DNA from: Chryseobacterium gleum
Lineage (GTDB): Bacteria; Bacteroidota; Bacteroidia; Flavobacteriales; Schleiferiaceae
DNA: 64,000 nt
Reading direction: 5' to 3'
NCBI GenBank assembly: GCA_945883565.1
Contig: CAMCXO010000004.1
Coordinates: 62,001 to 126,000, forward strand
The first letter of the stretch is position 1. Each line of letters begins with the position of its first letter. A model generated the notes under the pieces. The model saw only the letters and a program-made list of their open reading frames with translations, was not told where the DNA came from and made no database searches. Of this stretch, positions 7,339-25,345 are shown piece by piece. The translations under genes and the position numbers were made by a program.

Positions 7339-7458
7339 GCAGCTACCCGAAGGTGGTGATTTAGAAGCACTTCACTGTCAACCTGCACAAAAGTTTGATA
7401 GGAGCACGCAGCTTCAATTTTGCACGTCACCGCCAATTGAGGCAACACGTTGTTGGCA
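7339..7458 (-). repeat. attC-like palindromic element A (120 bp)
   Basis: Starts GCAGCTACCCGAAGG and ends GTTGGCA on the plus strand. Outer arms pair imperfectly (GCAGCTACCC...GGTGGTGA with TCACCGCC...GGCAGC just outside). Same length and same conserved ends as elements at 16376 and 25226; the first about 85 bp are clearly homologous to the 25226 copy. The variable 7-mer GTTGGCA occupies the position expected of an integron core site. No intact cassette gene adjoins it. Confidence 0.7.
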
Positions 7459-7616
7459 GCTGGTGTTCTGTCTGTCCGTCCTTGTAAACCATTGTATGTG
7501 TAGGGTTTCCGTGTCATTCTCCGTTTACTTTTTTTGTCTTTCTGTGTCGGGTTGTGTGTTGCGTTTTTTATTTTTTTTGAAGGGTCGGGAAATTTTTTTA
7601 AAAACAATTTTGTACT

Positions 7617-7701
7617 GCGTTGGCTTTGCAAGCTCTTTGACAAAGCTTTGGTTGGGCGTAGGCTCGTGCGGCTTTTAAATGTGCTTGCAAATAGCGTGGG
7701 C
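7617..7701. repeat. Inverted repeat at the 3' end of hsdR
   Basis: GGCTTTGCAAGC (7622-7633) pairs with GCTTGCAAATAGC (7683-7695) around a 49-nt spacer, directly after the hsdR stop. It contains GCGTTGG, also seen in hairpins at 17.8 and 24.5 kb. It could be a terminator-like structure or a degraded cassette site; no 7-mer core pair was found. Confidence 0.45.
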
Positions 7702-10700
7702 TAATATTGTCCGTAAATACTCATTCCTCCTCTAAAATATTGATGTTTTAAATGTTCATATACCAAATTCGTTTTTAAGTCAATGTCGTCTGTCTGATAA
7801 GTCGGGTAAGGCAATGTTTCAAATAAGGTCTTACTAACCGTATTAAAAACTGCCGCTGCTGTTACTGATTTGTCTGCCCATTGCTCAACTTTCAATTTCT
7901 CTTGTTTGAGTTCTTCGAGTAACGCAACCGATATTTTTTTGATTTCATTTTTCTCTTTTTCCTCTAACTTCTTCCCATGTCTTAGAATATCGAATATGGC
8001 TTTTTGCTCGTCTGTCAGTCCTTCTCTTTTAGTGTCGGCTTCTTCTTCTGAATAGGAGTTTACGAGTTCAATTAGCTTTCTGAATGTTTCTTTGATAACT
8101 ACTTCGTCTTTGCCTCTGTTGTACTCTTCAATGATTTCCTGATAGCGTTTGTAATAGTCAACCGTCAAAGGATTGCGTTCTACCATTCGTTTCAATTGCT
8201 TTTCAACTTTGTCTTTGAGTGACTGAACGGCAGCATTTTTATTTTTAGTCTTTAGGAAGTATTGCTCTAATAAGTCAAAATCCAGTCCGCTTAGGTCAAT
8301 GATTTTTTCTTCATTGTGTCCGGGTTCAGCAACCATATGTTCTATGGATTCATCTACCACGTTTTGAATTTTTCGCATTATGTCGGCAACATCTGCACTT
8401 TCAATATTGTCCTCTATAGCTGTGTAGATTACATCAATGGCGTTCTTTTTCGGTGCATATTGATTTAATGCTTTGTCGGGTTGCAGGGCTTTGTATTTCT
8501 TAAAAACCTCTCTTGCCAAAACCTGAAATTTCCGTTTGGTCTCGTCATTGGTGTAAACAGCGTTCACAGCTTTTTCCATTGCAGCCAATTTGTGCAAGCC
8601 GTCTGCTTTGATGAGTTCCTGTAAATCGAAATTCACTTCATCTTGCAAAAATGTTTCGGTGGCTTCTAATGCTTCTTCCAATTGCTTGATGAGATCTTCT
8701 TTTGGCTTATCGGGTGGTTCAGGTTTTTCGCCTCCACCGCCTTCGCCATCTTCTCCACCTGAACCATAAATTGCCAAAGCATCCAGCAAGGCAGTGTAAG
8801 TTTCAATGTAGTCCACAATCAAACCGTTGTTTTTGCCTTCGCTTATTCGGTTGGCTCTTGCAATGGCTTGCATTAACGTATGGGATTTCAGTGGCTTGTC
8901 AATGTACAAGGTTGATAGCGTTGGCACATCAAAACCAGTAATCCACATTGCACAAACTATCACGAAGCGGAAAGGGTCATCTTCATCCTTAAACCTTGCT
9001 TCAAGGTCTCCTTTATTCATTTTCTCCCGGTGTGGTTCAATATCTAAATCCCATTTCTGAAACTTTTGTATTTCGTTTTGTTCAGAACTCACCACTACAC
9101 ATATTTCGGTTTCCTTTATCCATTGCAGTTCACGGCTTTTTTCCAACAATTCTTGGTCGCCATATTTTCCTTTGGAAACTTCTTTTTCTAGTTGGTCAAC
9201 TGTCAGTTTCCAATGATGCGTAATTAAATCATACATTCTTACGGCTGTGAGTTTATCTAATGCGATAAACATTCCTTTGCCTTTATAGCCACGGTTACAA
9301 AAATGCCAAACGGCATCTTTGGCTATAGCATCTAATCGTTTCTTAGAAGTAAGTATCGGATATTCCCTTGCAAAAAGTTGTTCGACTCTACTGCGTTGGT
9401 CACTGTCTAAATCTTCGCTTTCAGCATCTATTACGGCTCTTATTTGGTCATTGATAACAGGGTTTTTCAATCCTAAATACTCGCCTCTGTTTTCGTAGTA
9501 AAGTGGAACGGTTGCTCCATCATCCACACTTCGTTTGAAATCGTAACGAGAAACATAATCACCAAAAATCCGCTTGGTAATTTCATCATCTTTGAAAAGC
9601 GGTGTTCCTGTAAATCCAATAAATGAAGCGTTCGGCAAGGCATTACGCAAATTCATTGCTAAATTTCCGCCTTGTGTTCTGTGTGCTTCGTCTGAAATGA
9701 CAATTATATTATCCCGCTTGGTTATTTCTTCTTCAAAGTTGAATTTGTGAATGAGAGTAAACAAATAGCGGTGTTCCGAACTTAGCAACTCTTTCAAATG
9801 CTTTCCACTATTGGCTTTCAATGAATCTTTTGAGCCTGATTTTACTTGCGGCACAGCACCAATTCCGCTAAATGTGCCGTAAATCTGTGTATCTAATTCG
9901 TTGCGGTCGGTAACAATCAGAAAAGTATAGCTGCCTGTAAATTTGTGGTGGATTTTTTGGCAGAAGAAAACCATTGAGTATGATTTTCCGCTTCCCTGAG
10001 TATGCCAAAACACACCCAATTTTTGTTTCTCCTCTAAACTGATTTTGCCCAGTTTGTAGAGTTGTTCTTTGTGCTGTATGTTCTCGATGGCTTTGTTAAC
10101 CCCAATAAACTGATGGTTTCGGGCAATGAGTTTTACCACCTTGCCTAATGAATTATCAAACAGAATGAAGTTCTCAAACAAATCTAAAAAGCGTTTCTTT
10201 TCGCAAACACCTACAATAATTCTATCTAAGGCAACAATGCCTTCGTCTTCTTCGGTGATACGTTTCCATTCGTGAAAGTGTTGATACTTGCCCGTAACAC
10301 TACCAATGCGGCTTTCAATGCCGTTGCTCAACATTACAAAGGCGTTGTAATAAAAAAGTTTTGGAATTACGTCTTTGTAATCAGTGAAATTATCGTTGTA
10401 GGCGTTTTCTAATTTGCGATGGGCTGCTTTTAGTTCAATGAACAGCATCGGAATCCCATTTATAAAACCAATAATATCGGGTCTGCGTTCACGGTTGCTC
10501 TTGCCCTGAATCCACAGTTGGCGAACGGCTAAAAAGTTGTTGTTACCGGCATTGTCAAAATCAAAAACTTTGAGGGTTACTATCCTCACCCCCTGCCCCT
10601 CTCCAGATGGAGAGGGGAGCTGAACGGGAATACCATTGCGGAGCAATTGGTGTTTTTCATAGTTTATTTCAGCTAATGATTTGGTAATGCTTTCTTCAAT

Positions 10701-10871
10701 CAGTTTTTCGTAGGCTTGGTTGTATGCTTGTTCGGGCAAGTTGGGATTGAACTGTATCAGCTTTTCAAAAAATATCTTTTTGAGCACGACTTCTTTTTTG
10801 TTCTGTCTGCCCAATGTGCTGCCTTCGCCAAAGCCTTCTTTGTTGTAAGCCACTAGCGTATCCCAATCCAA
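7701..10871 (-). CDS. hsdR: Type I restriction endonuclease subunit R, orphan, start codon damaged
   Basis: ATP-dependent translocase/nuclease of type I restriction systems. In order: PD-(D/E)xK nuclease 'RPDIIGFINGIPMLFIELKA' (about residues 130-149), Walker A TQGSGKS (291-297), DEAH (394-397), motif III TGTP (421-424), and a helical C-terminus for HsdM contact. Length is normal. The frame begins at a TTG (10871) in mid-domain: the codons upstream still read 'LVEQTAIDLFFNQ', but the ancestral ATG is now ATA (10935-10937) and a TAA lies at 10917-10919. Translation therefore needs the TTG or another non-ATG start, and the gene may be inactive. No hsdM or hsdS is present in the window. A palindromic repeat is inserted in frame at 10583-10624. 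Confidence 0.85.
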   Translation of the reverse strand: MDWDTLVAYNKEGFGEGSTLGRQNKKEVVLKKIFFEKLIQFNPNLPEQAYNQAYEKLIEESITKSLAEINYEKHQLLRNGIPVQLPSPSGEGQGVRIVTLKVFDFDNAGNNNFLAVRQLWIQGKSNRERRPDIIGFINGIPMLFIELKAAHRKLENAYNDNFTDYKDVIPKLFYYNAFVMLSNGIESRIGSVTGKYQHFHEWKRITEEDEGIVALDRIIVGVCEKKRFLDLFENFILFDNSLGKVVKLIARNHQFIGVNKAIENIQHKEQLYKLGKISLEEKQKLGVFWHTQGSGKSYSMVFFCQKIHHKFTGSYTFLIVTDRNELDTQIYGTFSGIGAVPQVKSGSKDSLKANSGKHLKELLSSEHRYLFTLIHKFNFEEEITKRDNIIVISDEAHRTQGGNLAMNLRNALPNASFIGFTGTPLFKDDEITKRIFGDYVSRYDFKRSVDDGATVPLYYENRGEYLGLKNPVINDQIRAVIDAESEDLDSDQRSRVEQLFAREYPILTSKKRLDAIAKDAVWHFCNRGYKGKGMFIALDKLTAVRMYDLITHHWKLTVDQLEKEVSKGKYGDQELLEKSRELQWIKETEICVVVSSEQNEIQKFQKWDLDIEPHREKMNKGDLEARFKDEDDPFRFVIVCAMWITGFDVPTLSTLYIDKPLKSHTLMQAIARANRISEGKNNGLIVDYIETYTALLDALAIYGSGGEDGEGGGGEKPEPPDKPKEDLIKQLEEALEATETFLQDEVNFDLQELIKADGLHKLAAMEKAVNAVYTNDETKRKFQVLAREVFKKYKALQPDKALNQYAPKKNAIDVIYTAIEDNIESADVADIMRKIQNVVDESIEHMVAEPGHNEEKIIDLSGLDFDLLEQYFLKTKNKNAAVQSLKDKVEKQLKRMVERNPLTVDYYKRYQEIIEEYNRGKDEVVIKETFRKLIELVNSYSEEEADTKREGLTDEQKAIFDILRHGKKLEEKEKNEIKKISVALLEELKQEKLKVEQWADKSVTAAAVFNTVSKTLFETLPYPTYQTDDIDLKTNLVYEHLKHQYFRGGMSIYGQY
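10583..10624. repeat. Palindromic interspersed repeat inserted in frame in hsdR
   Basis: CCCCTCTCCA (10596-10605) and TGGAGAGGGG (10608-10617) form a perfect stem with a 2-nt loop, inside a CCTCACCCCCTGCCCC context familiar from dispersed repeats of several bacterial phyla. It encodes 'LPSPSGEGQGVRI' (about residues 85-97) where HsdR proteins normally have a short charged linker before 'VFDFDN'. Confidence 0.8.
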
Positions 10872-10937
10872 CTGATTGAAAAATAAATCAATCGCTGTTT
10901 GTTCAACTAAATTATCTTATGAATATTCCCAAGTTAT
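10834..10937. repeat. hsdR 5'-end direct repeat, copy 1
   Basis: 104 bp matching 12458-12561; the first about 70 bp are nearly identical and the last 30 bp are diverged. It is joined to the intact hsdR body. Its ATG is ATA and the frame carries TAA at 10917-10919. The stop codon of the chaperone gene (10934-10936) overlaps the lost start. Confidence 0.9.
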
Positions 10938-11407
10938 CCATTATTCTTATTATGAAGCAAATTGTTCGGATTGATAATGGGCAACATAAAATTTTGCAAT
11001 GCCGTGCCTTGCAGTCGGGTTAAAAGAATGCCTCTTGATGTAGAATAGGTTACAGTTGAAAGTGCATTTGCCAATCCCGGATGCAGATTCAAACGCTTGT
11101 TTTTTTCGGGTGTGGCAAGCTCTTCTAAATTTTCAATTCGATAAATAAATATCAAATGAAAATTTCCCGTTGCTTCGACTTCGTTTTCGCCTTTGCTATC
11201 GGTTTTTATGCTAACAGTAAAATCGGCCTTAGCCAATTTATCGTCAAGGTTAAAGCCCAATTGTAAGGAGTTGTCTAATTGGTGTCCGACAACTTTGCTA
11301 ATTTCAAAATTTTCAGGTGTGTCCACCTGTCCTTTAATCATTTTGAAATCAATCAAAGTAATCTTTTCCGGGTCGAAAACAATTTTATCCTGCATTGCTC
11401 CATTCAT
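10934..11407 (-). CDS. SecB-like chaperone of a putative toxin-antitoxin-chaperone module
   Basis: 157 residues with the beta-rich layout of SecB-like proteins: 'DNSLQLGFNLDD.....FTVSIKTD', 'FHLIFIYRIENL', and a C-terminal helix ending 'ILLTRLQGTALQNFMLPIIN', comparable with the family's '..G.PP..LPPINF' ending. The assignment rests on this pattern and on gene order (toxin-like, XRE antitoxin, SecB-like), as in known TAC modules where the chaperone protects the antitoxin. The start overlaps the antitoxin 3' end by 23 bp (ATG 11407) or 11 bp (ATG 11395). Remote similarity only; a different beta-sandwich protein is possible. Confidence 0.55.
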   Translation of the reverse strand: MNGAMQDKIVFDPEKITLIDFKMIKGQVDTPENFEISKVVGHQLDNSLQLGFNLDDKLAKADFTVSIKTDSKGENEVEATGNFHLIFIYRIENLEELATPEKNKRLNLHPGLANALSTVTYSTSRGILLTRLQGTALQNFMLPIINPNNLLHNKNNG

Positions 11408-11798
11408 TGTAAGGTTCAGTTACTTCAGCAAATTGCCAAACCTTTCCACTCGTTTTTGTATCGAGATTTGTGTAACTCACATTGGTGTGCACCCTGCACA
11501 TAAAACCGTCTACTACAAATGCTGTCTGTGCTTTTTTCTTCGGCACTTCTAATAATGGCTCACCCAGTTCAGCAGACAATTTTGCCAGCGAACGCAAGGT
11601 GAAATTGTGCTCACCGCTCAGCCATTTGGAAATTTCAGATGGTTTTTTATCCATTTTCTCTGCGAGTTTCTTTTTGCTGATGTTATTTTCAAGCAATAGC
11701 TGATTGATACGAACGACTAGGTCGGCATAAAGCCTCACGAAGATTTCTACATCTTCAGGGGTTTCATCCAATATTTCTTGAAAGATCTTACTTCTCAT
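11385..11798 (-). CDS. XRE-family HTH antitoxin with C-terminal extension
   Basis: 137 residues. A Cro/C1-type helix-turn-helix occupies about residues 29-80 ('LLLENNISKKKLAEKMDKKP', 'SEISKWLSGEHNFTLRSLAKLSAELG'). An extension of about 50 residues rich in aromatic and beta-forming positions follows ('FVVDGFMCRVHTNVSYTN', 'KVWQFAEV'). In TAC modules such an extension is the chaperone-addiction segment that a SecB-like partner binds; that role is inferred. It lies 12 bp downstream of the putative toxin and overlaps the chaperone gene. It probably autoregulates the three-gene operon. Confidence 0.75.
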   Translation of the reverse strand: MRSKIFQEILDETPEDVEIFVRLYADLVVRINQLLLENNISKKKLAEKMDKKPSEISKWLSGEHNFTLRSLAKLSAELGEPLLEVPKKKAQTAFVVDGFMCRVHTNVSYTNLDTKTSGKVWQFAEVTEPYNEWSNAG

Positions 11799-11810
11799 TT
11801 TGTTTGTCTT

Positions 11811-12329
11811 TTATATCATTATGTCATCGCTACCATCGTAATATCGAAATGATCTTTGGTCAGCGGTAATGAAAATGTCTTTGTCTCTCAATGCATCCAA
11901 AATGCGTTTGGCAAAAATGTTGGCTTCTTGAAATGCCATACTTGTTTTTCCTCCTTGTGCTGTATCGGCTGTTTTCTCACCTCCGTTAAACAGCACCACC
12001 AAGGTTTCTGAAATTCGCAAACAATATAATCGAAGCGGAAAATTGCCGAAACGGATGTAAAGGTCCTCCACTTGGTAAGTGCCTGAAGGGGGAAGTGCCT
12101 CTGCATTGTTTTCGAACCTGAAGAAGTCGGGCCGTGCTCCATATTCATCTCCGATGACCACTTCAAGAAAGCTTGCCAGTTCTCGTAAGGGATGTTTGAG
12201 TTGCTCATCGTATATGAATTTTTGAAAAAACTTATCCGTTTCCGAAAGGGCAGCATCTTCCCACCTTACGGTGTAAAAGGTGCAAACCTTCCCTTGGTCG
12301 TCAAATATTTTAAGTTCAAATGTATTCAC
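11811..12329 (-). CDS. Putative toxin, first gene of the TAC-like operon
   Basis: 172-residue protein with no family I can name. The N-terminus 'MNTFELKIFDDQGKVCTFYTVRWED' and the core 'YIRFGNFPLRLYCLRISETLVVLFNGGEKTADTAQ' give alternating strands ending in a 'lR(L)...LVVLFNGG.K' motif reminiscent of HigB/RelE-like and Gp49-like toxins. 'FQEANIFAKRILDAL' follows as a helix. A toxin role is inferred from position directly upstream of an XRE protein and a SecB-like protein. Start ATG 12329 is preceded by an AT-rich stretch, suitable for the operon promoter. Confidence 0.5.
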   Translation of the reverse strand: MNTFELKIFDDQGKVCTFYTVRWEDAALSETDKFFQKFIYDEQLKHPLRELASFLEVVIGDEYGARPDFFRFENNAEALPPSGTYQVEDLYIRFGNFPLRLYCLRISETLVVLFNGGEKTADTAQGGKTSMAFQEANIFAKRILDALRDKDIFITADQRSFRYYDGSDDIMI

Positions 12330-12457
12330 TTATAACTGAATTACGCAAGCCTTTGTTTCACTTTTAAGTTAATTCACGTTTATACTATACCATATTTGTA
12401 TACAAATTAATGTTATAATATTTAATTTTCTTGTCAATCGATGCTCTTTAATAAAAA

Positions 12458-12561
12458 CCTTCTTTGTTGTAAGCCACTAGCGTATCCCAATCCAACTGAT
12501 TGAAAAATAAATCAATCGCTGTTTGTTCAACCAAACAATCTTCTGACTATTCCCAAGTCAT
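12458..12561. repeat. hsdR 5'-end direct repeat, copy 2 (stub)
   Basis: Retains the ancestral hsdR start: on the minus strand ATG (12559-12561) then 'TWE', a TAG at 12547-12549, then 'SEDCLVEQTAIDLFFNQLDW' and on to 'DTLVAYNKEGF'. It then breaks off at about 12458, where the toxin-operon flank begins. It lies directly downstream of the dprA-like stop, showing the original gene order dprA-like to hsdR. Confidence 0.9.
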
Positions 12562-12562
12562 A

Positions 12563-13735
12563 CTATCCGAATAAAGTAAGAGATATTACATCGGTTCTGG
12601 TAAATTTTGCAGGCTTTCCGGCTACTGTTTTTACGTTCGGATTCTTCTTTAAGAAACTGGTCAGTTTCCTGCTGTCCCAATCCAATTTCAAGCCGAGCAA
12701 TATTTCCTTTGATGTATATGTTCCTTTATTTAAAAATTCTAATATTTCTTTCTCGATATTTCTTTTTCCGCTTTCCATGTCATTAGTAGGTTCATTTACT
12801 TCATTTTTTTGTACAAGTTCAAATAACTCGGATGGTGCTTTTATTTTTTTATCAACTACTTCACCGTACATGTTTACTGCTAAAGCACCCAATTCTACTA
12901 ATTTAAGGTTGGCATTTTTCTCTTTGGGTTCAGGGTAACGAACATAGATTTTCCGACCTCGTTTTAATCCATCCATAGCTCCTTCCCATGTGCCGCCTTT
13001 GCTGTCTGATTCCGCCACATAAATTTCTTTAGCCAAACCATAGATGTATGCATTTCTGGCCATGGCCAAGCCGACATCCCAACCTGCTTTTGGAAAGAAT
13101 GTGCTCAATACTAAAACATCCCCGTTTACAATAGGCTCATAGTATTTCTTAAAACCTGACTGAAAAGTCAAAATGCCTTGTGGTAAAACAATTATGCTCT
13201 TTCCATTGAATTCTATTGTGCTGTCTAAAGCCTGTTTATCCACTCCTTTTGCAAAACCACTCACCACAACTTTAAATTCTTTTACACTTTTCTTTGCTAC
13301 ATGGTCAGTAAACATTAATGCTTTATCTCCGGCATTTCTAGAACCAACAATCGCTACTGCATCCTCTTGTAGCAAACCTTTTCTGCCTTTGATGTAAAGG
13401 ACAGGCGGAGAACTTTTAATTTTCAAATTCTCTTTTAAAACCACGGGGTAATCCGGAGAATTAATAGGAATAATTTGAAAACCTTCATTTTGCAATTGCT
13501 CGGCAATGAAAGCTAATTGAGGCATATCCGTTTTAGCATACTCCAAGTCAGCCAACTCCTTGTCGGTGAAGGCAAATAATTCTTTCCATCCCTTTTTATC
13601 TATGGCAAAGAAATCAGCCCACAACATTTTGTTTTCGTGAATGACTTGAATGATGAAGCGATTTGTCCTCTCAACCGACCATTTAGGCAAGTGAGCTATC
13701 GCAATCCAATAAGTTTTATCTATGTATTCGTTCAT
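12563..13735 (-). CDS. DprA/Smf-like protein in a defence context
   Basis: 390 residues. A DprA Rossmann-type domain is clear: 'VAIVGSRNAGDKALMF' (about 127-142), 'VVSGFAKGVDKQALDSTI' (157-174), 'IIVLPQGI' (181-188). Further on, 'SDSKGGTWEGAMDGLKRGR' resembles the family's 'S...SGSL.TA..A...GR' end. The C-terminus 'EILEFLNKGTYTSKEILLGL' looks like a winged helix, as in DprA. DprA proteins bind single-stranded DNA and load RecA in transformation. Here the close link to the RecQ-phosphoribosyltransferase gene (11 bp apart), and originally to hsdR, suggests a role in DNA-directed immunity. That role is inference. Confidence 0.85.
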   Translation of the reverse strand: MNEYIDKTYWIAIAHLPKWSVERTNRFIIQVIHENKMLWADFFAIDKKGWKELFAFTDKELADLEYAKTDMPQLAFIAEQLQNEGFQIIPINSPDYPVVLKENLKIKSSPPVLYIKGRKGLLQEDAVAIVGSRNAGDKALMFTDHVAKKSVKEFKVVVSGFAKGVDKQALDSTIEFNGKSIIVLPQGILTFQSGFKKYYEPIVNGDVLVLSTFFPKAGWDVGLAMARNAYIYGLAKEIYVAESDSKGGTWEGAMDGLKRGRKIYVRYPEPKEKNANLKLVELGALAVNMYGEVVDKKIKAPSELFELVQKNEVNEPTNDMESGKRNIEKEILEFLNKGTYTSKEILLGLKLDWDSRKLTSFLKKNPNVKTVAGKPAKFTRTDVISLTLFG

Positions 13736-13746
13736 GTCAATGCTTC

Positions 13747-15762
13747 TTAAATGTCGCCTCCTACCGTTCTTGCAATTACAAGCGGTGCAATGGTGGTGGT
13801 TCCTATGTTTGTCAAATATTGTCCAATCTCTTTGATTGTATAACCGCTATCAAAGATGTCATCAATCAGTAAAATGCTTTTTCCCGCCATCTCATCAGGA
13901 TTTTGGTATGCAAACTTCCCATGCACATTGTCCTTTTTAGAAATTCCGCTTTGAAATACTTTTTGAGGTGAAGTTGCTGCCGTTTTAATCAACTTATGTG
14001 AAATCGGGATGCTCAGTGTTCTTGAAATTTTCTCGGCAAAGTTCTTAACCAATTCACCTGATTCTGTTGGCGGAACATAAAGTATCATATCAAACGTGGT
14101 ATTCCCGTAATACTTCTTGAATGCCATTAGCGTTAGACGAAGCAACCAGTCGGGGAAATCCCCACCGCCTTCGTATTTTGAATGTCTTAAGGCAGCACCC
14201 ACATTTGAAACTCCGTAGTAAGATGCAGCCACGCCATTAACGATTTTGCTCTTAGTGGTTTCTACTTCCAACACCGGAAAAAAGGTTTCCCTGAATTCCT
14301 TCAATTGCTGTTTCATGGCTTCAGTAGCCATCACCCGCATATGTTGACGTGCATCATTATCACATACGCTACAAGCTCCCTGCCTTTCATCTCCCAAATA
14401 ATTGCACAGGTATTGCATTCTGCATGTCGAAATACCTGTGTATTCCAACATCTTTTCCAATTCCTGTTTCTGGGCGTTTCTCAGAGTTTCAAAGGCAGTA
14501 AGGTCTAATGCCGGGGCATCAGGATTGAAAAAGTATTTTTTGCTTTTACCGCTTAACTGCTCATTGATAATTTTTTGGTCAATTAAGTCTGCAAGGATGA
14601 CACTTACCTGCGTTTGTTTCAAATTGGTTGCTTTGATAATCTCGTTTCTGCCTAACAAAGCTTTTTTAGTCACAGCAATTACTTTTTCATACTTGGCAAC
14701 AGCAGGTTTACTTCCATCAATAAACGCCCTTGGCAATTCCGAATCTTCATTGGGGTTATATAAGAGAATGGCAAATGCTTCCTCACCATCACGACCGGCG
14801 CGACCAATTTCCTGATAGTAATGAATAGGTGATTGCGGAACTTGTGTGTGAATGATAAACCGAATATCGGGCTTGTCAATACCCATACCCAATGCATTGG
14901 TGGAAACAACGCAATCGTATTTATTATTGATGAAGTCGGTTTCTACCCGCATACGACTTTCTGCATCTAGCCTTCCGCTGTAAGCTGCTGAGTTGAATTT
15001 TAAGAACTGCAACCAGTTGGAGAAAATATCCGTGTTGGCTTGCGTTCCGGTATAAACTATGCCAGTTTTTTTCAGTTTGGGAAAATATTCTGCCAACCAA
15101 AAGAATTTTTCATCTTCACTTTCCACATGTACCACAAACAAGCGAATGTTAGAACGCATCAATTGCCCACGAATGGGTATCAAATCGGTGCCAACTTGTT
15201 GAATAATATCTTCCTGCACCCGTGGGGTGGCTGTAGCGGTGGTTGCCAATACCGGGAAATTCTTGGGCAATAATCGAACAAGGTTTACAATCCTACGGTA
15301 ATTAGGGCGGAAACTTTGTCCCCACATGGAAATACAATGTGCTTCGTCAATCACCACCATTGCCATTTTCATTTCCCTTGCGGCCATTATCCACGCAGCA
15401 TTCTCCATGCGTTCAGGGGCTATATATAGAATATCTAACTGGTTATTTTGGGCTTTGGAAATGACATCGGCATTCTCTGTATCGTCCTGGTTGGAATTAA
15501 TCGCTGCCGCACGGATACCCTTGGCTTGCATACTCCTCACCTGATCTCTCATCAAGGCTATAAGTGGAGAAAACACAATGGTAACACCTTGTAGTTGGGT
15601 GGCCGGAAACTGAAAGCACAATGATTTGCCAAATCCTGTTTTCTCAATGAACAGCACACGTCTGCCAGCCAACAGATTTTCAATAACCTGCCATTGCAAA
15701 TCGTGAAACTGCTTGAATCCAAACAGTTTTTGTAATTGTACTTCGGCTTGTTGTCGCGTCAT
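13747..15762 (-). CDS. RecQ-family helicase fused to a phosphoribosyltransferase domain
   Basis: 671 residues. The RecQ helicase core has Walker A 'EKTGFGKS' (40-47), 'DEAHCISMWGQSFRP' (139-153), motif V/VI 'GMGIDKPDIRFIIH' and 'QEIGRAGRDGE', and a four-cysteine zinc site 'CRMQYLCN...GACSVCDND'. The last about 170 residues form a type I phosphoribosyltransferase domain with the PRPP loop 'SILLIDDIFDSGYT' (629-642) and a 'KSKIVNGVAASYYGVSNVGAA' helical linker before it. The fusion is known in several phyla, often near DprA-like genes. The nucleotide substrate is unknown. Probably co-transcribed with the DprA-like gene that follows. Confidence 0.9.
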   Translation of the reverse strand: MTRQQAEVQLQKLFGFKQFHDLQWQVIENLLAGRRVLFIEKTGFGKSLCFQFPATQLQGVTIVFSPLIALMRDQVRSMQAKGIRAAAINSNQDDTENADVISKAQNNQLDILYIAPERMENAAWIMAAREMKMAMVVIDEAHCISMWGQSFRPNYRRIVNLVRLLPKNFPVLATTATATPRVQEDIIQQVGTDLIPIRGQLMRSNIRLFVVHVESEDEKFFWLAEYFPKLKKTGIVYTGTQANTDIFSNWLQFLKFNSAAYSGRLDAESRMRVETDFINNKYDCVVSTNALGMGIDKPDIRFIIHTQVPQSPIHYYQEIGRAGRDGEEAFAILLYNPNEDSELPRAFIDGSKPAVAKYEKVIAVTKKALLGRNEIIKATNLKQTQVSVILADLIDQKIINEQLSGKSKKYFFNPDAPALDLTAFETLRNAQKQELEKMLEYTGISTCRMQYLCNYLGDERQGACSVCDNDARQHMRVMATEAMKQQLKEFRETFFPVLEVETTKSKIVNGVAASYYGVSNVGAALRHSKYEGGGDFPDWLLRLTLMAFKKYYGNTTFDMILYVPPTESGELVKNFAEKISRTLSIPISHKLIKTAATSPQKVFQSGISKKDNVHGKFAYQNPDEMAGKSILLIDDIFDSGYTIKEIGQYLTNIGTTTIAPLVIARTVGGDI

Positions 15763-16495: not shown

Positions 16496-16530
16496 GTTCG
16501 GGCTTTTTTCTCAATCGTCATTTTCCTTAG

Positions 16531-17202
16531 TTATTGAAAGTTTTGTGCTTCTTTTACTGTAAATGCTTTGATGTCATTTGTTGGTGCGAAATATATCTTT
16601 TTTGGTGCAGGTAAAAGTTGCTTTTCTTCTCCCATTGCAAAGCCGAGTTTATAGCCAACATTATCGTCTGTTGTCAAGAATACGTTGTCGTGTTCGGTAT
16701 CGTCTTCTGGAATGAACAACATAACTTTTTTATTTGCTGACTTTTCAGTTATCCAACCTTTAGCTTGTCCAGTCGTTTCCCAAGCTGTAACATCAAATGA
16801 CTTGTCAAAACCCATCGGACTATGAACATAGTTAACGAAGTAACAATAAATTTCAAATTCAATGTCATAGGGAAATGTTATAGCAAATTGTCTTTCGCTT
16901 AACATATAAAGTCGTGGTAGTGCCTGAAAACTTTTCTTGTTATACATATTACAAAAGCCAGTCAAAATACTGTCCATTTCTGACTTGGATATCTTGTCAA
17001 CGATTACAAGTTTGTCATTTGGTTTTTCTTGTGTTGGCAAGTGTTTATTTGATGGTCTGGTTGTGTATCTGTCGGCTTCTGGTTTTTGTCCCGCTGGCAT
17101 AAAAGCCTTAAATGCAAAAATTAAAACTGCCACACCGATTATTATTAAAACCATTATCATATTCTTTTCTTTATTTGGTTGTTCGTTGGATTGTATCGTC
17201 AT
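16531..17202 (-). CDS. Membrane-anchored hypothetical protein (cassette gene)
   Basis: 223 residues, no family recognised. One N-terminal membrane helix (about residues 15-36, 'MIMVLIIIGVAVLIFAFKAF') is followed by a Pro/Lys-rich linker and a soluble domain of mixed alpha/beta character. The orientation is probably a periplasmic domain with an inner-membrane anchor. The start is 8 bp inside the unit boundary at 17211. The whole unit 16489-17217 is bounded by inverted GTTAGCG/CGCTAAC, so I regard it as a mobile gene cassette. Function unknown. Confidence 0.7.
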   Translation of the reverse strand: MTIQSNEQPNKEKNMIMVLIIIGVAVLIFAFKAFMPAGQKPEADRYTTRPSNKHLPTQEKPNDKLVIVDKISKSEMDSILTGFCNMYNKKSFQALPRLYMLSERQFAITFPYDIEFEIYCYFVNYVHSPMGFDKSFDVTAWETTGQAKGWITEKSANKKVMLFIPEDDTEHDNVFLTTDDNVGYKLGFAMGEEKQLLPAPKKIYFAPTNDIKAFTVKEAQNFQ

Positions 17203-17210
17203 AACCGGAC

Positions 17211-17342
17211 CGCTAACGGTTCTTAATAAACATCAGTGCAGCTTCGCCCAACGTAGGTTAAAATTACGGAACATGTTTTTATTGACCGCGAGCACGAAAC
17301 GAAGGAAGGTTAAAGCCGTATTGCGTTTATTTTGTGTTAGGC
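17211..17342 (-). repeat. attC-like site between two cassette genes (132 bp)
   Basis: Read on the minus strand it begins with GCCTAAC (17336-17342), a perfect fit to the attC R'' consensus RYYYAAC, and ends with GTTAGCG (17211-17217). An internal GTTGGGC (17246-17252) fits GTTRRRY. Internal arms TTACGG and CCGTAT pair. Length is within the range of attC sites. It is not a sequence homologue of the 120-bp elements. Confidence 0.6.
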
Positions 17343-17353
17343 ACACGTTTTTT

Positions 17354-17782: not shown

Positions 17783-17920
17783 TGCCAACGGTTTGGCACT
17801 TCTTTTCTTCGTCCATTTGTTGGTCAGTCGTGCGTTGGGACAGACACACTTTTTGCCAAGTTTTGGCTTGCGTGTCGGCTTGATCAACTTGGCAATGTGT
17901 GTGGCTGTGAGGGGTTGGGT
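17783..17920 (-). repeat. attC-like site at the 3' end of the jet operon (138 bp)
   Basis: On the minus strand it starts ACCCAAC (17914-17920, fits RYYYAAC) overlapping the jetD stop and ends GTTGGCA (17783-17789). A strong stem lies inside: ACACACTTTTTGCCAAG on the plus strand pairs with CTTGGCAATGTGTGT, extended by ACAG/CTGT. It could double as a jet transcription terminator. Confidence 0.55.
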
Positions 17921-19068
17921 TATTCATTGTCAAAGTATTTGTTTACATAGTCTAATGGGATTTTTTCTTGTTCAAATCTCCAGTTGTTTGTTTTCAAAAT
18001 CTCGTAAAGCTCTTGTTCTTCGTCTGACAAGTTAAGTTTTACGGAAATATTTGTTGGCGTTCCATTATCGTCTTCAAAAAAAGTGTCAAAGGCTTTCTTG
18101 TCCATTAAAACACTTCTTGTATGCGGAAAGTAAGTCCTGAATTGTGAAAGAATTTCAAAGCCTTGAACGTCTATGTCTCCCCAATAAAGTAATTTAAGAT
18201 TGTCAAGCCAACGTACATTTTTAAGATTGAAAACACTAAATCCACTACCAAAAATTGCAATGGTGTCATTCATTTTTGGAAGTGTCAAAGTGGTGTAAAG
18301 TGTTGTCTTGTTCTCTACGACCAATACTTTTTTAATTGATAAGTTAAGCTTTTCAAATTGGCTAACTGGAACAGCAATATCATCAATTCCCGAAAAAAAT
18401 CTTTCCGATATTGTTTTGTCAAGAACCTTAAACCGAATTTGAGGTTCAGCATATTTTAAATTAAACCTATTTTCAAATTCTTTTTCTTCACTTTTTACGT
18501 GTTCCGAGATTAGAACATCTAGCAGTTCCCTGATAATGCTTTTGTTTCTCTCGATAAATTTTGTGTGAACTTTTATCGGCAATTCTCTAATATATAAATT
18601 TGGTTTTGGATTTTGTTTAAAGTATTGACACACTTGCAAAATGTTTTTCCATTCGATCCCATTCTCAATAATCTTTCTAGGACTTTTAATTATCCAATCT
18701 TTGAGTTCAGGGAATTCCAGAAGGATTATCTCAACATTTGATTTGAAAGAATCTACTTCATTCTCTTTACCTAAAAATTTCAAAAAATCATTTTCATTAT
18801 CAAAGTAAATTGAAATTGGCAAATCTTGAGTTCCTAAATGCTTGGTCTTTATTTTTTGAAATTCCAATGTATAGCCAAAACCCTTTTTCTCCTTTGAATG
18901 GCTATGAATTTGTTGAATTTCTCTTTCAAATTCCGACAGTGAAGATTTGGTGTACGACTTATCGCCACGAATAACCAATTTCTCAAAAGGTCGCTGTTCA
19001 ACCAAAGATTGAAGAAATGAAATGTACTTTCTTTCTGTTTTATCCTTTATTTCCTTTGGTGTAATCAT
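17920..19068 (-). CDS. jetD: Wadjet nuclease subunit JetD
   Basis: Toprim/TopoVI-A-like nuclease of the Wadjet system, which cleaves small circular plasmid DNA after JetABC loop extrusion. The N-domain (DUF3322) shows 'LYIRELPIKVHTKFIERNK'; the C-domain (DUF2220) shows 'LLYWGDIDVQGFEILSQF', the acidic Toprim-like DxD site, then 'FPHTRSVLMDKKAF'. ATG 19068 gives a 4-bp ATGA overlap with jetC and reads 'MITPKEI'; a longer start at 19080 is a TTG and is less likely. Last gene of the jetABCD operon. Confidence 0.92.
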   Translation of the reverse strand: MITPKEIKDKTERKYISFLQSLVEQRPFEKLVIRGDKSYTKSSLSEFEREIQQIHSHSKEKKGFGYTLEFQKIKTKHLGTQDLPISIYFDNENDFLKFLGKENEVDSFKSNVEIILLEFPELKDWIIKSPRKIIENGIEWKNILQVCQYFKQNPKPNLYIRELPIKVHTKFIERNKSIIRELLDVLISEHVKSEEKEFENRFNLKYAEPQIRFKVLDKTISERFFSGIDDIAVPVSQFEKLNLSIKKVLVVENKTTLYTTLTLPKMNDTIAIFGSGFSVFNLKNVRWLDNLKLLYWGDIDVQGFEILSQFRTYFPHTRSVLMDKKAFDTFFEDDNGTPTNISVKLNLSDEEQELYEILKTNNWRFEQEKIPLDYVNKYFDNE

Positions 19069-22000
19069 TGAGTCATACAATTCGCTTTTTCTTCTTTGAA
19101 TTGTTCAATTGGCATATCATAGAGCCAAGATTGTTTTTCGTCTTTTATTTCAACATAATGAACATAGGAAATATTATCTTCAACGATATGTAAGTCATTC
19201 AAGGGGGTTACAACAAGTAGTTGAAGGTGCAGCTGCTTGCAAAGTGAAAGTAAATATTTGGCTTTCTCTTCATCTTGTGCCTTGAAGGCTTCATCAATAG
19301 CGACAAACCGAAAAGATTTAGACTCTAAACCCTGATTATATTTAGTTAAGCCAAATTGATAAGCTATGGCAGAACCTAATATTGTGTATGTCAACTGTGC
19401 TTTTTGTCCGCCAGATAATGCACCCATTCCTTCATAAGTTTTGAATTTGGCATTTGTTTCCTTGTAAAATTCTTCGGCTTTGTAACTAAACCAAGAACGA
19501 ACGTCCATTACTTTTATACGCCATTCTATTTTGTCTAATTTCTCAATAAATGGTTGAACATGATTATTAAAATGATGCTTTCTGCCTTCATTGTTTTTCT
19601 CCATTTGGTAAACATTTGGTACGGCTTCTTCTAAAAGCTTTCTAAATTCCTTTACTTCATCATTAATCTTGTTAGGAGCAACAAGTTGGATATAGGTTTC
19701 GGGTTTACTTTTGAAGTCAATCTCTTTTAAAGATTCATTCAAATGTTTGATGTTTTCTTTGATTGAATCTGACCAGTTTTCAAAGAACATTCTGAAATCA
19801 CCAACTTTGTTGGTAATTGTTTCTTGCAAATAATCGTTGAATTTCTTTTCAAACTTTGGAAGGTTATCATTCTCCAACTTAGCAAGGAAGTTTTGATATT
19901 CACTGATTAACTCTAAATGTGTTGAATCGGGTAGAGAATTAACATCAGAACGCCAATCCTTGAATTTGCTTAATATAGCTTCTGAAGGCTGTTTAAAATC
20001 GTTTATCTTGTTGATTACTTCTCTTTCTTTCCTTTGCTTCTGTTCTTCAAGTTCTCTTGTTTGTTTTGAATTTTCCATTTGGAATCTCTCACGACTTGAT
20101 TCAAAGGTTGCGTATTCAATATTCAGCAAATCGGAATGTTGTTTTTCAAACATTGAAACATCAACAATTCCCAATGGCTCATAAATAGATTTGTTACTCC
20201 TGATTGATTTTTCAATAGAACCAACTTCATTTTTCTTGGTAAATATTTCTTGCTCCTTATCGGAAATTTGAACTTTTGAAAGTTGGTTTAAAGAGTCTTG
20301 AACCTTTTTTAAATCCTCTTGTAATTGCTTTAGACGATTGTTCGTTTTTTCTAATTTTTCTTTCTGTTCTGTTTTTTCTTGTATATCGTTCGCATACGAT
20401 TGCCAGTTTATGTCATCATATTTTTCAAACTTTGAAAACAGGTTATGGCATTCATCCTTGAATATGCCTAAGTTTTTTATCTCGATATTTTTGTTTGCAA
20501 TCGCTTTCTTCTTTTCTGTTTGTTGATTTTGAAGATTGATTAATTCTTTCTTTAGAGAGGAGAGTTTTTCTTTGTTATCCCATCCCAATACAAAATTTTC
20601 CTTTCGAGTTATATGAGGCCGGTCGTCTTTTTCGTGTTTGCCCCTTTTGAATTTTATCAATCCATTTTGAGTAATTGCCATTTCGTGGAATTGCTCAAAT
20701 TCCGAAAGATTCTCTACGCAAACAAAATCAAATTGAGATTCCAAATAGTTCTCAATCCAATCGCAATATTGTGTTTTTGGCTTAATTTCAATTTTATTGA
20801 TTAATGACTTTTCGTTAAGTATTTTGTTCTTGAAATTTTTAAGATAGTCTTGGTCTTCATATTTGTCGTAACGAATTCTACCTTTCAAATTATTGCTGTT
20901 CACATATTGATTCACTGATGAATAGTACTTTTGTGGAACAATCAATCGTAATGCAAAATTGTGAAGTACTTTCTCAATTGATGATTCCCACTTCATTTCA
21001 TCATCCTTTACTTTAATCAATTCTCCAATAAATGGGATTTCTTCTCGATTTGCCCCAATGTGTGAAATGATTTCATCTCGTATTTCGGCTTCACGCCCTG
21101 CTATATTATTTTTGTTTTCTTGAAGAGTTTTTATAGTTTTTACTAAATCTTCGGTGTCTTGTTTTAGTTTATCTTCTTCATTCTTAAATGCACGGAGATT
21201 TTCAATTTCTATATCAATATTATTTTGCGTGATTTGTTTTAACTTCTTCGCACTTTCTCTGTTCGTGTTAAAAGTTTCTTCACTTGGGTTGGTGATGAAG
21301 TCGATGTTTTGGGCAATTTTATTGTAATCATCAAGTTTTCGACTTCTGTTGTCTTTAAGGGTTTGAAGATTTTTAATATCCTTCTCTAAATCTTTGATTT
21401 TACTTCCTACTTCATCTTTTTCAATCGAAATCGAGATAGTTCGTTCTTCTTGTTTTAGTTTTTCCTCCTTATCACGTAAATCAGTTAACTCATCATTTAA
21501 TCTTTGCAACTCTTCTTTACATTTCTCCAGTTCTTTTTCACCCAACTCAACACCTTTAGTTGCAAACCAATAAACTGCCGTTTCTTTCGACTTTTCCAAT
21601 CGAAATAAATCCGCTTTGATATTGGTCAGTTCTATTGCAATCTCATTAATTGGCCTTAGTTGTTCAATTTGTTCTTTAGCCTTTTCAATGTTGGTTTTAG
21701 CATCCATTAAAGTCAAGAAACTTTCTTTAAGTTGAATGAATTCTGCTTCCGCATCTTGTTCTTCCAACATATTGGTTCTTATGAAATCATCTAAGTCTTC
21801 CAATACTTTTACCCCAACAACTTGATTGAACAAAGTCAACGCTTTTGTTGAACGCATACCAAATAAGTCCGCCATTCTTTCTGCATAAGCAGTAGGTCCA
21901 TCTATGAACTCAATTTTCTTCTTCGTGACATTCGAGTTGTACTTTTTATCTAAAACCTTTTTCCAATTTCCTTTTGAATCGAATTGATCAAAATCAGATT

Positions 22001-22469
22001 CTACTTCCAGAGGAACGTGAGCAATTCCGAATTGCCGCCTTAATTCATTATTCGAAAACCAACGTACTTGAAAAAGTGTAATTTGTTTTTGGTCTGCATT
22101 GGAGAATGAAGCAAGAATTACTGAATAGGTGTTTGTATCACGCAATTTTTGTGTAGAAGTAGAAGTTTTTCCTTCTTCTTGAATGTTTCCGTAATGCCCC
22201 AACACATAGGTTTCTTCGGTACGGTCGCCTTTCTTCTCAACACCCGAAGATTGATTGTAAAAACGGTCTTTCTTTGCAGGAACAATTAGAGTAAGCAATG
22301 CATCAATGTATGTGCTCTTTCCAGATGCGTTTGCACCAGTCAAAAGTGAATTATTCCCATTCGGATTTATTCTAAAAACCTTTTCATTAAATGTTCCCCA
22401 GTTGTAAACTTCCATATATTGAAGTCTGAACCCCGCTTTGTCGGAACTTGTACTAAACAGACTCAACAT
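19065..22469 (-). CDS. jetC: Wadjet SMC-like ATPase JetC
   Basis: 1134 residues; MukB/SbcC-like motor. Walker A 'GANASGKST' (about 45-53) follows the strand 'YNWGTFNEKVFRI'. Two long coiled-coil stretches (about 270-480 and 650-900) flank a hinge region with 'IPFIGELIKVKDDEMKWESS'. The C-terminal ATPase half carries the signature 'LSGGQKAQL' and Walker B 'FVAIDEAF'. ATP hydrolysis by JetC dimers drives DNA loop extrusion that measures plasmid topology. It overlaps jetB by 17 bp and jetD by 4 bp. Confidence 0.93.
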   Translation of the reverse strand: MLSLFSTSSDKAGFRLQYMEVYNWGTFNEKVFRINPNGNNSLLTGANASGKSTYIDALLTLIVPAKKDRFYNQSSGVEKKGDRTEETYVLGHYGNIQEEGKTSTSTQKLRDTNTYSVILASFSNADQKQITLFQVRWFSNNELRRQFGIAHVPLEVESDFDQFDSKGNWKKVLDKKYNSNVTKKKIEFIDGPTAYAERMADLFGMRSTKALTLFNQVVGVKVLEDLDDFIRTNMLEEQDAEAEFIQLKESFLTLMDAKTNIEKAKEQIEQLRPINEIAIELTNIKADLFRLEKSKETAVYWFATKGVELGEKELEKCKEELQRLNDELTDLRDKEEKLKQEERTISISIEKDEVGSKIKDLEKDIKNLQTLKDNRSRKLDDYNKIAQNIDFITNPSEETFNTNRESAKKLKQITQNNIDIEIENLRAFKNEEDKLKQDTEDLVKTIKTLQENKNNIAGREAEIRDEIISHIGANREEIPFIGELIKVKDDEMKWESSIEKVLHNFALRLIVPQKYYSSVNQYVNSNNLKGRIRYDKYEDQDYLKNFKNKILNEKSLINKIEIKPKTQYCDWIENYLESQFDFVCVENLSEFEQFHEMAITQNGLIKFKRGKHEKDDRPHITRKENFVLGWDNKEKLSSLKKELINLQNQQTEKKKAIANKNIEIKNLGIFKDECHNLFSKFEKYDDINWQSYANDIQEKTEQKEKLEKTNNRLKQLQEDLKKVQDSLNQLSKVQISDKEQEIFTKKNEVGSIEKSIRSNKSIYEPLGIVDVSMFEKQHSDLLNIEYATFESSRERFQMENSKQTRELEEQKQRKEREVINKINDFKQPSEAILSKFKDWRSDVNSLPDSTHLELISEYQNFLAKLENDNLPKFEKKFNDYLQETITNKVGDFRMFFENWSDSIKENIKHLNESLKEIDFKSKPETYIQLVAPNKINDEVKEFRKLLEEAVPNVYQMEKNNEGRKHHFNNHVQPFIEKLDKIEWRIKVMDVRSWFSYKAEEFYKETNAKFKTYEGMGALSGGQKAQLTYTILGSAIAYQFGLTKYNQGLESKSFRFVAIDEAFKAQDEEKAKYLLSLCKQLHLQLLVVTPLNDLHIVEDNISYVHYVEIKDEKQSWLYDMPIEQFKEEKANCMTQ

Positions 22470-23031
22470 AATCTTTTAACTTATTTTCAAATTCTTGTAA
22501 AATATCAAGAGTGATTTTTTCTTTGATAATTCTATGTATTTGGTATTTCGTTTCATTGTCTTTCTTGTTTATTTCTTTTAAGTAGCCCAAATCAACAGCC
22601 GCATTGATATACTTATCAAGTTCTTTTATGAATTTGACTTTGTTATATTTTTCTGGAAGAAATAATTCTAACTCCTCGTTTATTTCTGTATTTGTGATAA
22701 ATTTTTCGGTTGCCAATTGTGTAGGATTGCTGTCAAAATCTTCTAGGCTTTGTCTTAGAACAACAAGCACAATAGAGGTTTCAAAGCCGATTTGTCGTCT
22801 TTGTACTAATCCGAGAGTGTTACCTTCACTATCTTCAAGTTGCTTTACAAAAGCAAATCCTTCATCTTTTTTAACGATTAACTCTAAACCAATTTTACTA
22901 ATGTAGTCCTGGATTTCAGTTTGATAATTTATTACATCATCCCATACATTGGAGTTTCGTTCTACGGTTGCTTTTAATAACCTTACAATGACTTTGCTAT
23001 AAGGAGTAATATGCTTTTCTAAACTGCTCAT
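22453..23031 (-). CDS. jetB: Wadjet subunit JetB (DUF4194)
   Basis: 192 residues; MukE-like winged-helix subunit (DUF4194). 'VIVRLLKATVERNSNVWDDV' and 'QDYISKIGLELIVKKDEGFAF' and 'LGLVQRRQIGFETSIVLVVL' match the family pattern. JetB bridges the kleisin JetA and DNA. It overlaps jetA by 4 bp (ATGA) and jetC by 17 bp, showing translational coupling. Confidence 0.92.
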   Translation of the reverse strand: MSSLEKHITPYSKVIVRLLKATVERNSNVWDDVINYQTEIQDYISKIGLELIVKKDEGFAFVKQLEDSEGNTLGLVQRRQIGFETSIVLVVLRQSLEDFDSNPTQLATEKFITNTEINEELELFLPEKYNKVKFIKELDKYINAAVDLGYLKEINKKDNETKYQIHRIIKEKITLDILQEFENKLKDYVESV

Positions 23032-24488
23032 TTGGTCAAAATAATTTCAGGGATTTTAATTTGTTTGCGGTTGTCCGCATCAAAAATGATACTTTGGGTT
23101 TTATCAGGATTGATAATGTGTTTGAATTCCTTCACAATGCCTATGTAACCGAACAACTCAGGCAACCCTTTTTCAAGACCACCATAATTTTCGACAATTT
23201 CTAAAAGTGTGGACTGCGACTTTTCTTTAAGTACATCTTTCACCCTTTTTCTCAACAATTCTTTATCAATATTAGACTGTGAAAACAGTCGTCCTAATTG
23301 ATTAGATGATGTAATGTCTTCATTAGCAATTTTGGGTCTATTGGTGTATGTAACTTCTTCAGATTGCTCTTTCGTGAGTTTGCGTTCAAATGGAATATTT
23401 ATATCTGTTGCTGTTTCTAATTCAAATGAAATATCAGGCTTGTTCTTGGATTTACTGATTTCTACAAGTTGCTTCTTAATGTCTTGAATTATTTTTTTCG
23501 TGGCTTCTGATTTAGAACTTTCATTCTCACGAATTATGCGGCTTAGTTTTTCAGCCATTTTATCATTGGCTTTGTAAACTTTTTGTCCTGAACTATGGAG
23601 ATGTTTTTTCATTCCTATCAGGAATGTATCCCTTACTGAGATTGATTTTTCTTCTAAGGTTGTGTATAAATCTTTGGTCAGGCTTTCCCATTTGTGCTGT
23701 AAATCTGGATTCAATATGAATGACCAGAAGGCGTAAAAGCTTTTTCCTTGTTGGCTTTCTTTTAATGATTCAAGTGCATCAAAAGTAAATTCCAGTATGT
23801 CACTCTTGGATAAGCTTCCATCAGCGTGTTTTTGATAAATCCCTTTTGTAATTTCTTTAAAGTTGTCTTCAACTTCTTTAAAGTCGGATAATAATTCTTT
23901 AGCGGATTGATTGAGTTGATTAAAACGGGGTACGATTTCAAATTCTTCAAATACTTTTACGTCTTCTCCGATTTTTATTCGTTGAATTTGTTGTTCAATT
24001 TCTAATTTTTTCTCTTCCAACAACTCTATACGCTTTTCGGCATCTTCATTAGTGAACTCAACCAACTCTTTTAATTGATTCAGTATGTTGTTGAATTTGG
24101 ATTCAGTACCAACAAACTCTTCCTTTTTTAAACTTGCCAACCAATCTATGGTTTTACTTGAATGTGAAGATAGTTCATAAAAAATTTCACCTTGTTCATC
24201 AGGATAATTCGTCAAAAAGCCATTGTTAGTCCAGTTTTGAATATACTTTTTGGCTTTATCTTCATAGGTGTCAAAAAAATTAATTTCATTTTCTTCATCG
24301 ATTTCAATTCTCTGTCCTTCTAAAAAGTCCGCTAATTGAGAATGAATATTCTCAGATGAAATGGAGTTTTGTTTATTAACGAAAGTTCTTACTAGAAATT
24401 CAATAATCATTTCTCTGTTTCGTAAACGTAACAAACCAACACTTGGAGAAGTGTTTAGCGTGTTTAGTATTTGAGAAATGTCTGCCAT
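23028..24488 (-). CDS. jetA: Wadjet kleisin subunit JetA (DUF3375)
   Basis: 486 residues; MukF-like kleisin, DUF3375, which defines type I Wadjet. N-terminal winged-helix 'SVGLLRLRNREMIIEFLVR' and 'LADFLEGQRIEI', central helical and coiled region, C-terminal 'GGLEKGLPELFGYIGIVKEF' domain. First gene of the operon. The upstream region (24489-24600) contains a strong hairpin and no clear TAnnTTTG promoter. Confidence 0.92.
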   Translation of the reverse strand: MADISQILNTLNTSPSVGLLRLRNREMIIEFLVRTFVNKQNSISSENIHSQLADFLEGQRIEIDEENEINFFDTYEDKAKKYIQNWTNNGFLTNYPDEQGEIFYELSSHSSKTIDWLASLKKEEFVGTESKFNNILNQLKELVEFTNEDAEKRIELLEEKKLEIEQQIQRIKIGEDVKVFEEFEIVPRFNQLNQSAKELLSDFKEVEDNFKEITKGIYQKHADGSLSKSDILEFTFDALESLKESQQGKSFYAFWSFILNPDLQHKWESLTKDLYTTLEEKSISVRDTFLIGMKKHLHSSGQKVYKANDKMAEKLSRIIRENESSKSEATKKIIQDIKKQLVEISKSKNKPDISFELETATDINIPFERKLTKEQSEEVTYTNRPKIANEDITSSNQLGRLFSQSNIDKELLRKRVKDVLKEKSQSTLLEIVENYGGLEKGLPELFGYIGIVKEFKHIINPDKTQSIIFDADNRKQIKIPEIILTK

Positions 24489-24639: not shown

Positions 24640-25017
24640 GGTGGTAATCGGGTCATACAGGGGAATCTCACCACTACCTTCCCACAGAACCGTGCGTGAA
24701 AGTCTCCCTTCACACGGCTCTTCATGTTGTTAAGTCACTAAAGATATTCAGCTTCACGGACATACCAATAACCAAAGTGCAAATTAATTGGGTCGTTCCC
24801 TGTATTTCGTGCGCAGGTATTGTAAACCCGCTTTCTTATACAGCCCCTTTTCCCATTTTACCCATTTCAGTAGTCGTAAGTTCAGTTGCCACCATACTGC
24901 CAACTTAACCCCGGATGCCATGTGTTCAGTAATCAGGCTCCTAACACACTCTGTCATAGGCACAAACGTAACCACCTACTTTCGACATCGCTTTTTGCGC
25001 TTACGAGGCTTCTTCAT
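24640..25017 (-). mobile_element. 3' remnant of a group II intron (RT C-terminus, domains V and VI)
   Basis: On the minus strand, an open stretch ends 'LLKWVKWEKGLYKKAGLQYL' and then 'RTKYRERPN', typical of the maturase/C-terminal end of group II reverse transcriptases. A TAA replaces the expected Leu before 'FALWLLV'. Downstream, about 24686-24722 folds as domain V: AGCCGTGTGAA...GAGA tetraloop...TTCACGCACGGTT with the AGC triad. A domain VI-like stem follows (GGGAAGG...), ending near TATGACCCG. The 5' part of the intron and the reverse transcriptase active site are missing. Confidence 0.75.
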
Positions 25018-25093
25018 TGGTTCACTTTCGTTCAGCTCATTGTATTCATACCGACAGAGATTCTTATCCCCGTTTTTCCTTATCGCTCACCAC
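25018..25093. repeat. 76-bp block shared with 7097-7172
   Basis: One mismatch against the copy at 7097. Here it abuts the truncated 5' side of the group II intron remnant and lies 132 bp left of element C. The intervening 25094-25225 holds no recognisable gene. Confidence 0.9.
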
Positions 25094-25225
25094 AAGTTTG
25101 TTTCCATATCAAGCAGCATAAGGTGGTTTGGCAACTACTCCTGGAAGTCGTCGCCGAGAGCCCTACTCTCATCTGTTCTAAAGCACCAACAATCCGCTGA
25201 TTGTTGTTCAAGCCACACACGGTTC

Positions 25226-25345
25226 GCAGCTACCCGAAGGTGGCGATTTCGGAGCACTTCACTGTCAACCAAGCAGAAACTTTGATAGAAGCACAAAGCT
25301 TGATTTAACCACTGAACCGCCACTTTTGGGTAGGTGCTGTTATGG
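25226..25345 (-). repeat. attC-like palindromic element C (120 bp)
   Basis: Starts GCAGCTACCCGAAGGTGGCG and ends GTTATGG. GCAGCTACCC-GAAG-GTGGCGAT pairs with ACCGCCAC-TTTT-GGGTA-GGTGCTG. It lies directly 3' of the gene at 25359-25865. The terminal GTTATGGCTC (25339-25348) is the perfect reverse complement of GAGCCATAAC at 26589-26598, on the far side of the two-gene unit. Confidence 0.8.

Follow-up and report, generated by a model that had tools for sequence, protein, structure and literature searches.

Three repeat elements in the window (the whole 64 000-nucleotide stretch of DNA that was analysed), here called A, B and C, are very probably attC sites of a decayed chromosomal integron, of a kind that in living relatives is apparently run by a distinct class of IntI-like tyrosine recombinases without the additional domain of integron integrases. 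Sequence comparison establishes a site structure with covariation, complementarity at the cassette boundaries, an attI, linkage of arrays to the integrase, the lack of a canonical IntI in the genomes searched and one cassette common to two genera.

The elements and the wrecked platform

As a preliminary description had stated, each element measures 120 bp from the start of GCAGCTACCCGAAG, which has no other mismatch-free copy in the window, to the end of a GTT 7-mer, and exactly 16 bases separate CCGCCA from that 7-mer in all three (Table 1). The sites function in minus-strand orientation: there the R' box is what the forward-strand 7-mer gives when reverse-complemented, and each copy lies downstream of a gene in the layout R'(..AAC)-stem-TGGCGG...CRCCA-stem-AACCG^T. 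The site ends at AACCG^T, a few bases past GCAGC (B has GACG^T), and because the copies cease to resemble one another immediately beyond that G, the element as first drawn was a few bases short at one end. Its palindromic character holds for C, over the whole length and with both outer arms paired, but not for A and B, in which the outer arms are unpaired and the inner TGGCGG/CGCCA part is retained. In single-stranded DNA folding against shuffled sequences, C was the best of the three (z −2.3 and −1.4), B was weak (−1.6 and −0.9) and A did no better than the shuffles (−0.5 and +0.5). The outer 5' arm of A resembles the arm of a site on contig C5, which pairs with its own 3' arm, and homologous recombination between site types is probably the simplest account of the hybrid sites A and B.

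Within the window, Rfam matched only the introns described below and not the elements themselves. We built a covariance model from C and five other copies from the same genome; although A and B were left out of it, the model recovered both (Table 1), so that the elements are more than chance resemblances. The three copies in the window are real, but the family does not end with them, at least six more being present elsewhere in the genome. Their constant length had been taken as something a recombinase would preserve; the elements do have the features of recombination sites, but the shared length is more likely to reflect common descent of the site type than a fixed rule, because the sites of relatives fall into classes of 62–65 and 125–133 nt.

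Table 1. Features of the window, in forward-strand coordinates; elements as first described run from the start of GCAGCTACCCGAAG to the end of the GTT 7-mer.
Feature	Position	Strand	Evidence or remark	Element as first described
Truncated group II intron directly after attC A	7129..7330	-	RF01999, 48.2 bits at 7129-7255	
attC A	7331..7461	-	Covariance match, E 5e-13; hybrid arms	7339-7458
Gene block ending at A: PDDEXK_3 protein, PsyrT-like helicase, PsyrA-like protein, PDC-M64-like genes, HsdR	7701..16232	-		
attC B	16368..16498	-	Covariance match, E 3e-5; hybrid arms	16376-16495
Single-gene cassette between D and B: 223-aa protein	16531..17202	-	No Pfam match	
Probable decayed attC D	17217..17346	-	3' end GAACCG^TTAGCGGT = start of the cassette ending at B	
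Wadjet type I defence operon jetABCD	17920..24488	-	Pfam, PADLOC	
ORF-less group II intron in R'' core of attC C, between GT and TACCACC	24647..25218	-	Rfam RF01999, 84.9 bits; RF00029, 60.7 bits	
attC C	25218..25348	-	Covariance match, 137.6 bits (C itself in the model); fully paired stem with compensatory changes	25226-25345
First cassette: DUF6843 protein gene and 168-aa protein gene	25359..26548	-	Start = exact complement of R' of attC C	
attI-like TCGTATATATATAAG^TTATGGCTC	26589..26612	-	Crossover between 26598 and 26597; recurs before first cassettes on C3, C6, C18 and C48	
Integrase gene remains: N-terminal piece and C-terminus piece, catalytic core lost	26717..26951	-	tblastn	

The remains of the integrase gene were recognized by tblastn, with the integrase of genome G009 against 26951-26805 (47% over 49 aa, E 1e-9) and with the C-terminus of the G017 integrase against 26803-26717 (48% over 29 aa, E 0.002); a fuller copy of the same relic lies on contig C6. 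Next to this wreck, an attI-like TATATATAAG^TT directly precedes the cassette start belonging to C; the first 10 bases of that cassette, 1.25 kb upstream of C, have their perfect complement in its R' box. The same boundary rule holds in nine of 10 bases between the R' box of B and the 3' end of site D, 718 bp upstream of B; the coordinates of D were read from the sequence and not from a model. For the block ending at A and the block from C to D, no clean match of start and R' was found in the window. A gene with a TonB_C domain stands between the Wadjet operon and D in minus-strand order. The cassette-borne genes of the window include Wadjet, a PsyrTA-like pair and a type I restriction subunit; Wadjet and the PsyrTA-like pair, with an AIPR-type abortive-infection gene in the first cassette of contig C6 and, judging by sequence, likewise in G017, suggest that the arrays carry phage defence genes.

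Several smaller observations concern the same region. The HsdR gene (7701-10871, minus strand) has no recognized HsdM or HsdS adjacent to it, and three small genes upstream of it match the PADLOC candidates PDC-M64. After the truncated intron, at 6395-6940 on the minus strand, two small overlapping genes resemble, by eye, a RelE/ParE-type toxin and an antitoxin, and the CTTATAACAGC that comes after them may, again by eye, be one more decayed R' box. Just upstream of the integrase remains, adjoining tandem arrays occupy 27505-28654 (105-bp units × 6.6 and 21-bp units × 22), and on C3 and C18 similar repeats seem to lie ahead of the attI copies.

The genome holds at least five dead platforms of this kind, plus more sites. 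An identical or almost identical attI occurs on contigs C3, C6, C18 and C48, each time behind an apparent 3' stub of the same integrase (for C3, C18 and C48, as judged by eye from the translation), and on C6, C18 and C48 the cassette start that follows attI directly is again exactly complementary to R'. No intact recombinase of the domain-less class was found in this genome, for which reason we regard A, B and C as relics; besides the C6 stub, the only matches to the IntI profile were on C38 and C43, and both group with Xer-like rows of the tree described below. On C3, C18 and C48, the 1.1–1.3 kb upstream of attI are 88–90% identical; with the integrase dead and this upstream stretch yet so alike, some other process seems to have duplicated the platform.

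The introns associated with A and C (that at A having its 5' end read from the sequence rather than from a model) have relatives on contigs C56 and C8. Their 3' exons, TACCACC after attC C and TAGCAGC and TATGGCT on the two contigs, are the remainder of the GTTRRRY core, which places the insertions in the top strand of R'', at GT|TA. Like the group IIC-attC introns, they are group II introns at attC sites, after the hairpin; unlike them, they lie on the top strand, in gene direction, at GT|TA in three copies, whereas IIC-attC introns insert at TTGT/T of the bottom strand, apart from one reported top-strand case (PMC7923331).

Site structure and arrays in related genomes

In a seed alignment of six sites of the same type, seven of 24 pairs change on both sides, a result reached in none of 500 shuffles. 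A larger set gave 319 double changes against 113 when shuffled and at most 80 when slid, but here the alignment had been fitted to the model, so that the counts lean towards structure. Neither the boundary statistics nor the seed alignment depends on that fit. RNAalifold returned no structure for an alignment of mixed types, because the site types were misaligned, and restriction to the six same-type sites resolved this. Judged by covariation, the sites have the imperfect hairpin, the R' box ending in AAC, the R'' box with G^TT and the unpaired spacers of attC.

The boundary rule extends to other genomes. Nine consecutive cassettes in G017 have start and R' complementary in 9–10 of 10 bases, and over all arrays 17 of 32 neighbours match, against 0.9 in shuffled arrays with a maximum of six in 10 000. 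Since the covariance model misses short sites of 62–65 nt, for example those of a Rufibacter plasmid, we wrote a model-free detector based on hairpin plus complementarity, which in its strict form found 68 chained pairs, compared with none in reversed sequence.

The covariance model located sites in 18 of the 40 genomes, the window's own included, and arrays adjoin an intact tyrosine recombinase in G017 (12 sites), G026, G018 and G005. Further loci, in named genomes, were gathered by recombinase search. Several of the genomes analysed are metagenome assembled. Among the loci with at least 1.5 kb of downstream sequence, chained sites follow 10 of 22 domain-less integrases, with none upstream and none on the other strand; the strict detector found no chained sites at the other 12. 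The 10 loci belong to Algoriphagus ornithinivorans, Cyclobacterium sp., Flavobacterium aciduliphilum, F. enshiense, Algibacter onchidii, Winogradskyella ursingii, Flavobacteriaceae S0862, Rufibacter sp., Rufibacter tibetensis (plasmid) and Seonamhaeicola aphaedonensis; Aquiflexum adds a further case. Of 17 array loci, 14 have an attI candidate close to the integrase, 44–211 bp after its stop (in G005, beyond its start), so that the order recombinase, attI, array recurs at this frequency across many genera; the candidates of G022, G026 and L130 are weaker or more distant. The location at gene 3' ends, the boundary rule and these arrays beside a tyrosine recombinase bear out the original designation of the elements as attC-like.

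A cassette of 1833 bp is common to G005 and G017, which belong to different genera, with 92.9% identity running from one G^TT to the next and different neighbours on both sides; it begins at attI in G005 and at an attC in mid-array in G017. This is a single case, but an exact one, and it points indirectly to the site-specific cassette capture that predicts such a pattern.

A recombinase class without the additional domain

Aligned with IntI1, the recombinases of these loci keep the catalytic residues and the SPxD tail and are without the IntI-specific additional domain of about 42 residues around patch III. The spacing from KGKKDR to HxLRHS is 57–63 aa in the class, compared with exactly 100 in five canonical IntIs; in Aquiflexum it is 63. 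The integron-integrase profile TIGR02249 matches the class in two pieces, below its cut-off, and no canonical IntI above the cut-off was found in the 40 relatives and the 10 named array genomes. An AlphaFold model of the integrase has a pLDDT of 84, and its best fold match in the PDB is the integron integrase 2a3v. Most members have an N-terminal extension, which is absent in some; Pfam HARP (PF07443) matches it in four of 25 members at E up to 1 (best 5.7e-6), and the term 'HARP-like' is therefore safe only for part of the class.

In the tree, the canonical IntIs form one clade, with the domain-less class next to it or around it, and 100/100 support separates both from the few Xer-like rows used. 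The hypothesis that the domain-less members from Bacteroidota form a single clade was not rejected (p-AU 0.61), and the tree fits IntI either nested in the class or sister to it. The class shares with XerC, XerD and XerA the catalytic fold, and reaches or comes close to the cut-off of the NCBIfam XerA-type model NF040815, but it differs in its separate branch (100/100 against those few Xer-like rows), in the SPxD tail and in the linkage to attC arrays.

With the canonical-IntI integrons, both class 1 and sedentary chromosomal, the present loci have in common attI, attC with R'/R'' and unpaired spacers, R'-complementary cassette starts, crossover at G^TT and co-oriented arrays. They differ in that the linked integrase is without the additional domain and mostly carries an N-terminal extension, and in that integrase and array mostly run in the same direction. 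The additional domain has been described as a defining and necessary feature of integron integrases (PMC9668308 and the consulted passages of PMC8138268) and has been used to select them (PMC2426708). The integron-like tyrosine recombinase subgroup of Smyshlyaev 2021 is likewise different, as the consulted passages of that paper (PMC8138268) call the insertion essential for integron function and do not tie members without it to cassette arrays. The protein profile used by IntegronFinder 2 is specific to IntI, and one complete integron in Bacteroidetes proper was reported with it (PMC9024848). As integron searches rely on IntI profiles, the class was apparently overlooked; in the open-access literature that we searched, we found no description of integrons with domain-less integrases.

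Origin of the sites and competing explanations

In the intact system, a tyrosine recombinase would exchange strands at G^TT of the R'' core, and cassettes would be excised in circular form and inserted at attI (roughly TATAnnnAnnAG^TT); as this entry point lies mostly 44–211 bp downstream of the integrase, co-oriented gene arrays would grow from there. We infer that the domain-less recombinase itself performs this reaction, presumably on a folded single strand, and the N-terminal domain may help recombination. In the present genome, only fragments of the integrase survive, A and B have become hybrids of two site types, probably through homologous recombination between copies, and group II introns have entered R'' cores, leaving large blocks of defence genes stranded.

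The reported necessity of the additional domain (PMC9668308 and the consulted passages of PMC8138268) speaks against our reading, and would favour instead ordinary attC sites served by a canonical IntI, acting in trans or since lost, with the domain-less recombinase as a bystander; a complete integron has indeed been reported in a member of the Bacteroidetes, Salinibacter ruber (PMC9024848). We consider this unlikely, in view of the recurrent order of recombinase, attI and array in many genera and the failure of any of 50 genomes to yield an IntI above the cut-off. Much less probable still is an origin as ordinary dispersed repeats, REP or MITE-like and intergenic by chance. The several dispersed copies, the imperfect palindromes, the two hybrids and the poor folding of A would suit such repeats, and the preliminary description had itself named REP elements without a link to gene ends as the finding that would overturn it; the sites, however, lie at gene 3' ends and form arrays in relatives, and boundary complementarity, attI, array order, the chained pairs absent from reversed sequence and the transfer of a cassette with exact boundaries all argue against it, so that we rejected it. 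The introns directly after A and C could also be taken to mean that the repeats are intron targets or structural sequences of group II introns rather than recombination sites, but B and almost all other copies are intron-free, and because it is the R'' core that the introns interrupt, at GT|TA, the site must be older than the intron. With the boundary evidence added, this explanation too was rejected as highly improbable.

Beyond the decayed integron that we favour for A, B and C, a wider proposal can be put forward tentatively, with slightly less than even confidence: that a separate integron class, sister or ancestral to the known integrons, is widespread in Bacteroidota and recombines folded attC without the additional domain, whose role would be taken by other parts such as the HARP-like N-terminal domain. 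If the class does recombine attC in this way, the requirement for the domain would be lineage-bound, integrons throughout a major phylum, some of them in type strains and one on a plasmid, would have escaped searches with IntI profiles, and the origin of integrons from Xer-like enzymes would become testable.

Domain-less recombinases were also seen outside Bacteroidota, in metagenome-assembled genomes of an Undinarchaeales archaeon (L127) and a member of the Spirochaetota (L124), where the contigs end soon downstream. The genomes of loci L097 (G041) and L117 (G047) each hold two recombinases with a two-piece match to the IntI profile, which suggests that two platforms may coexist in one genome.
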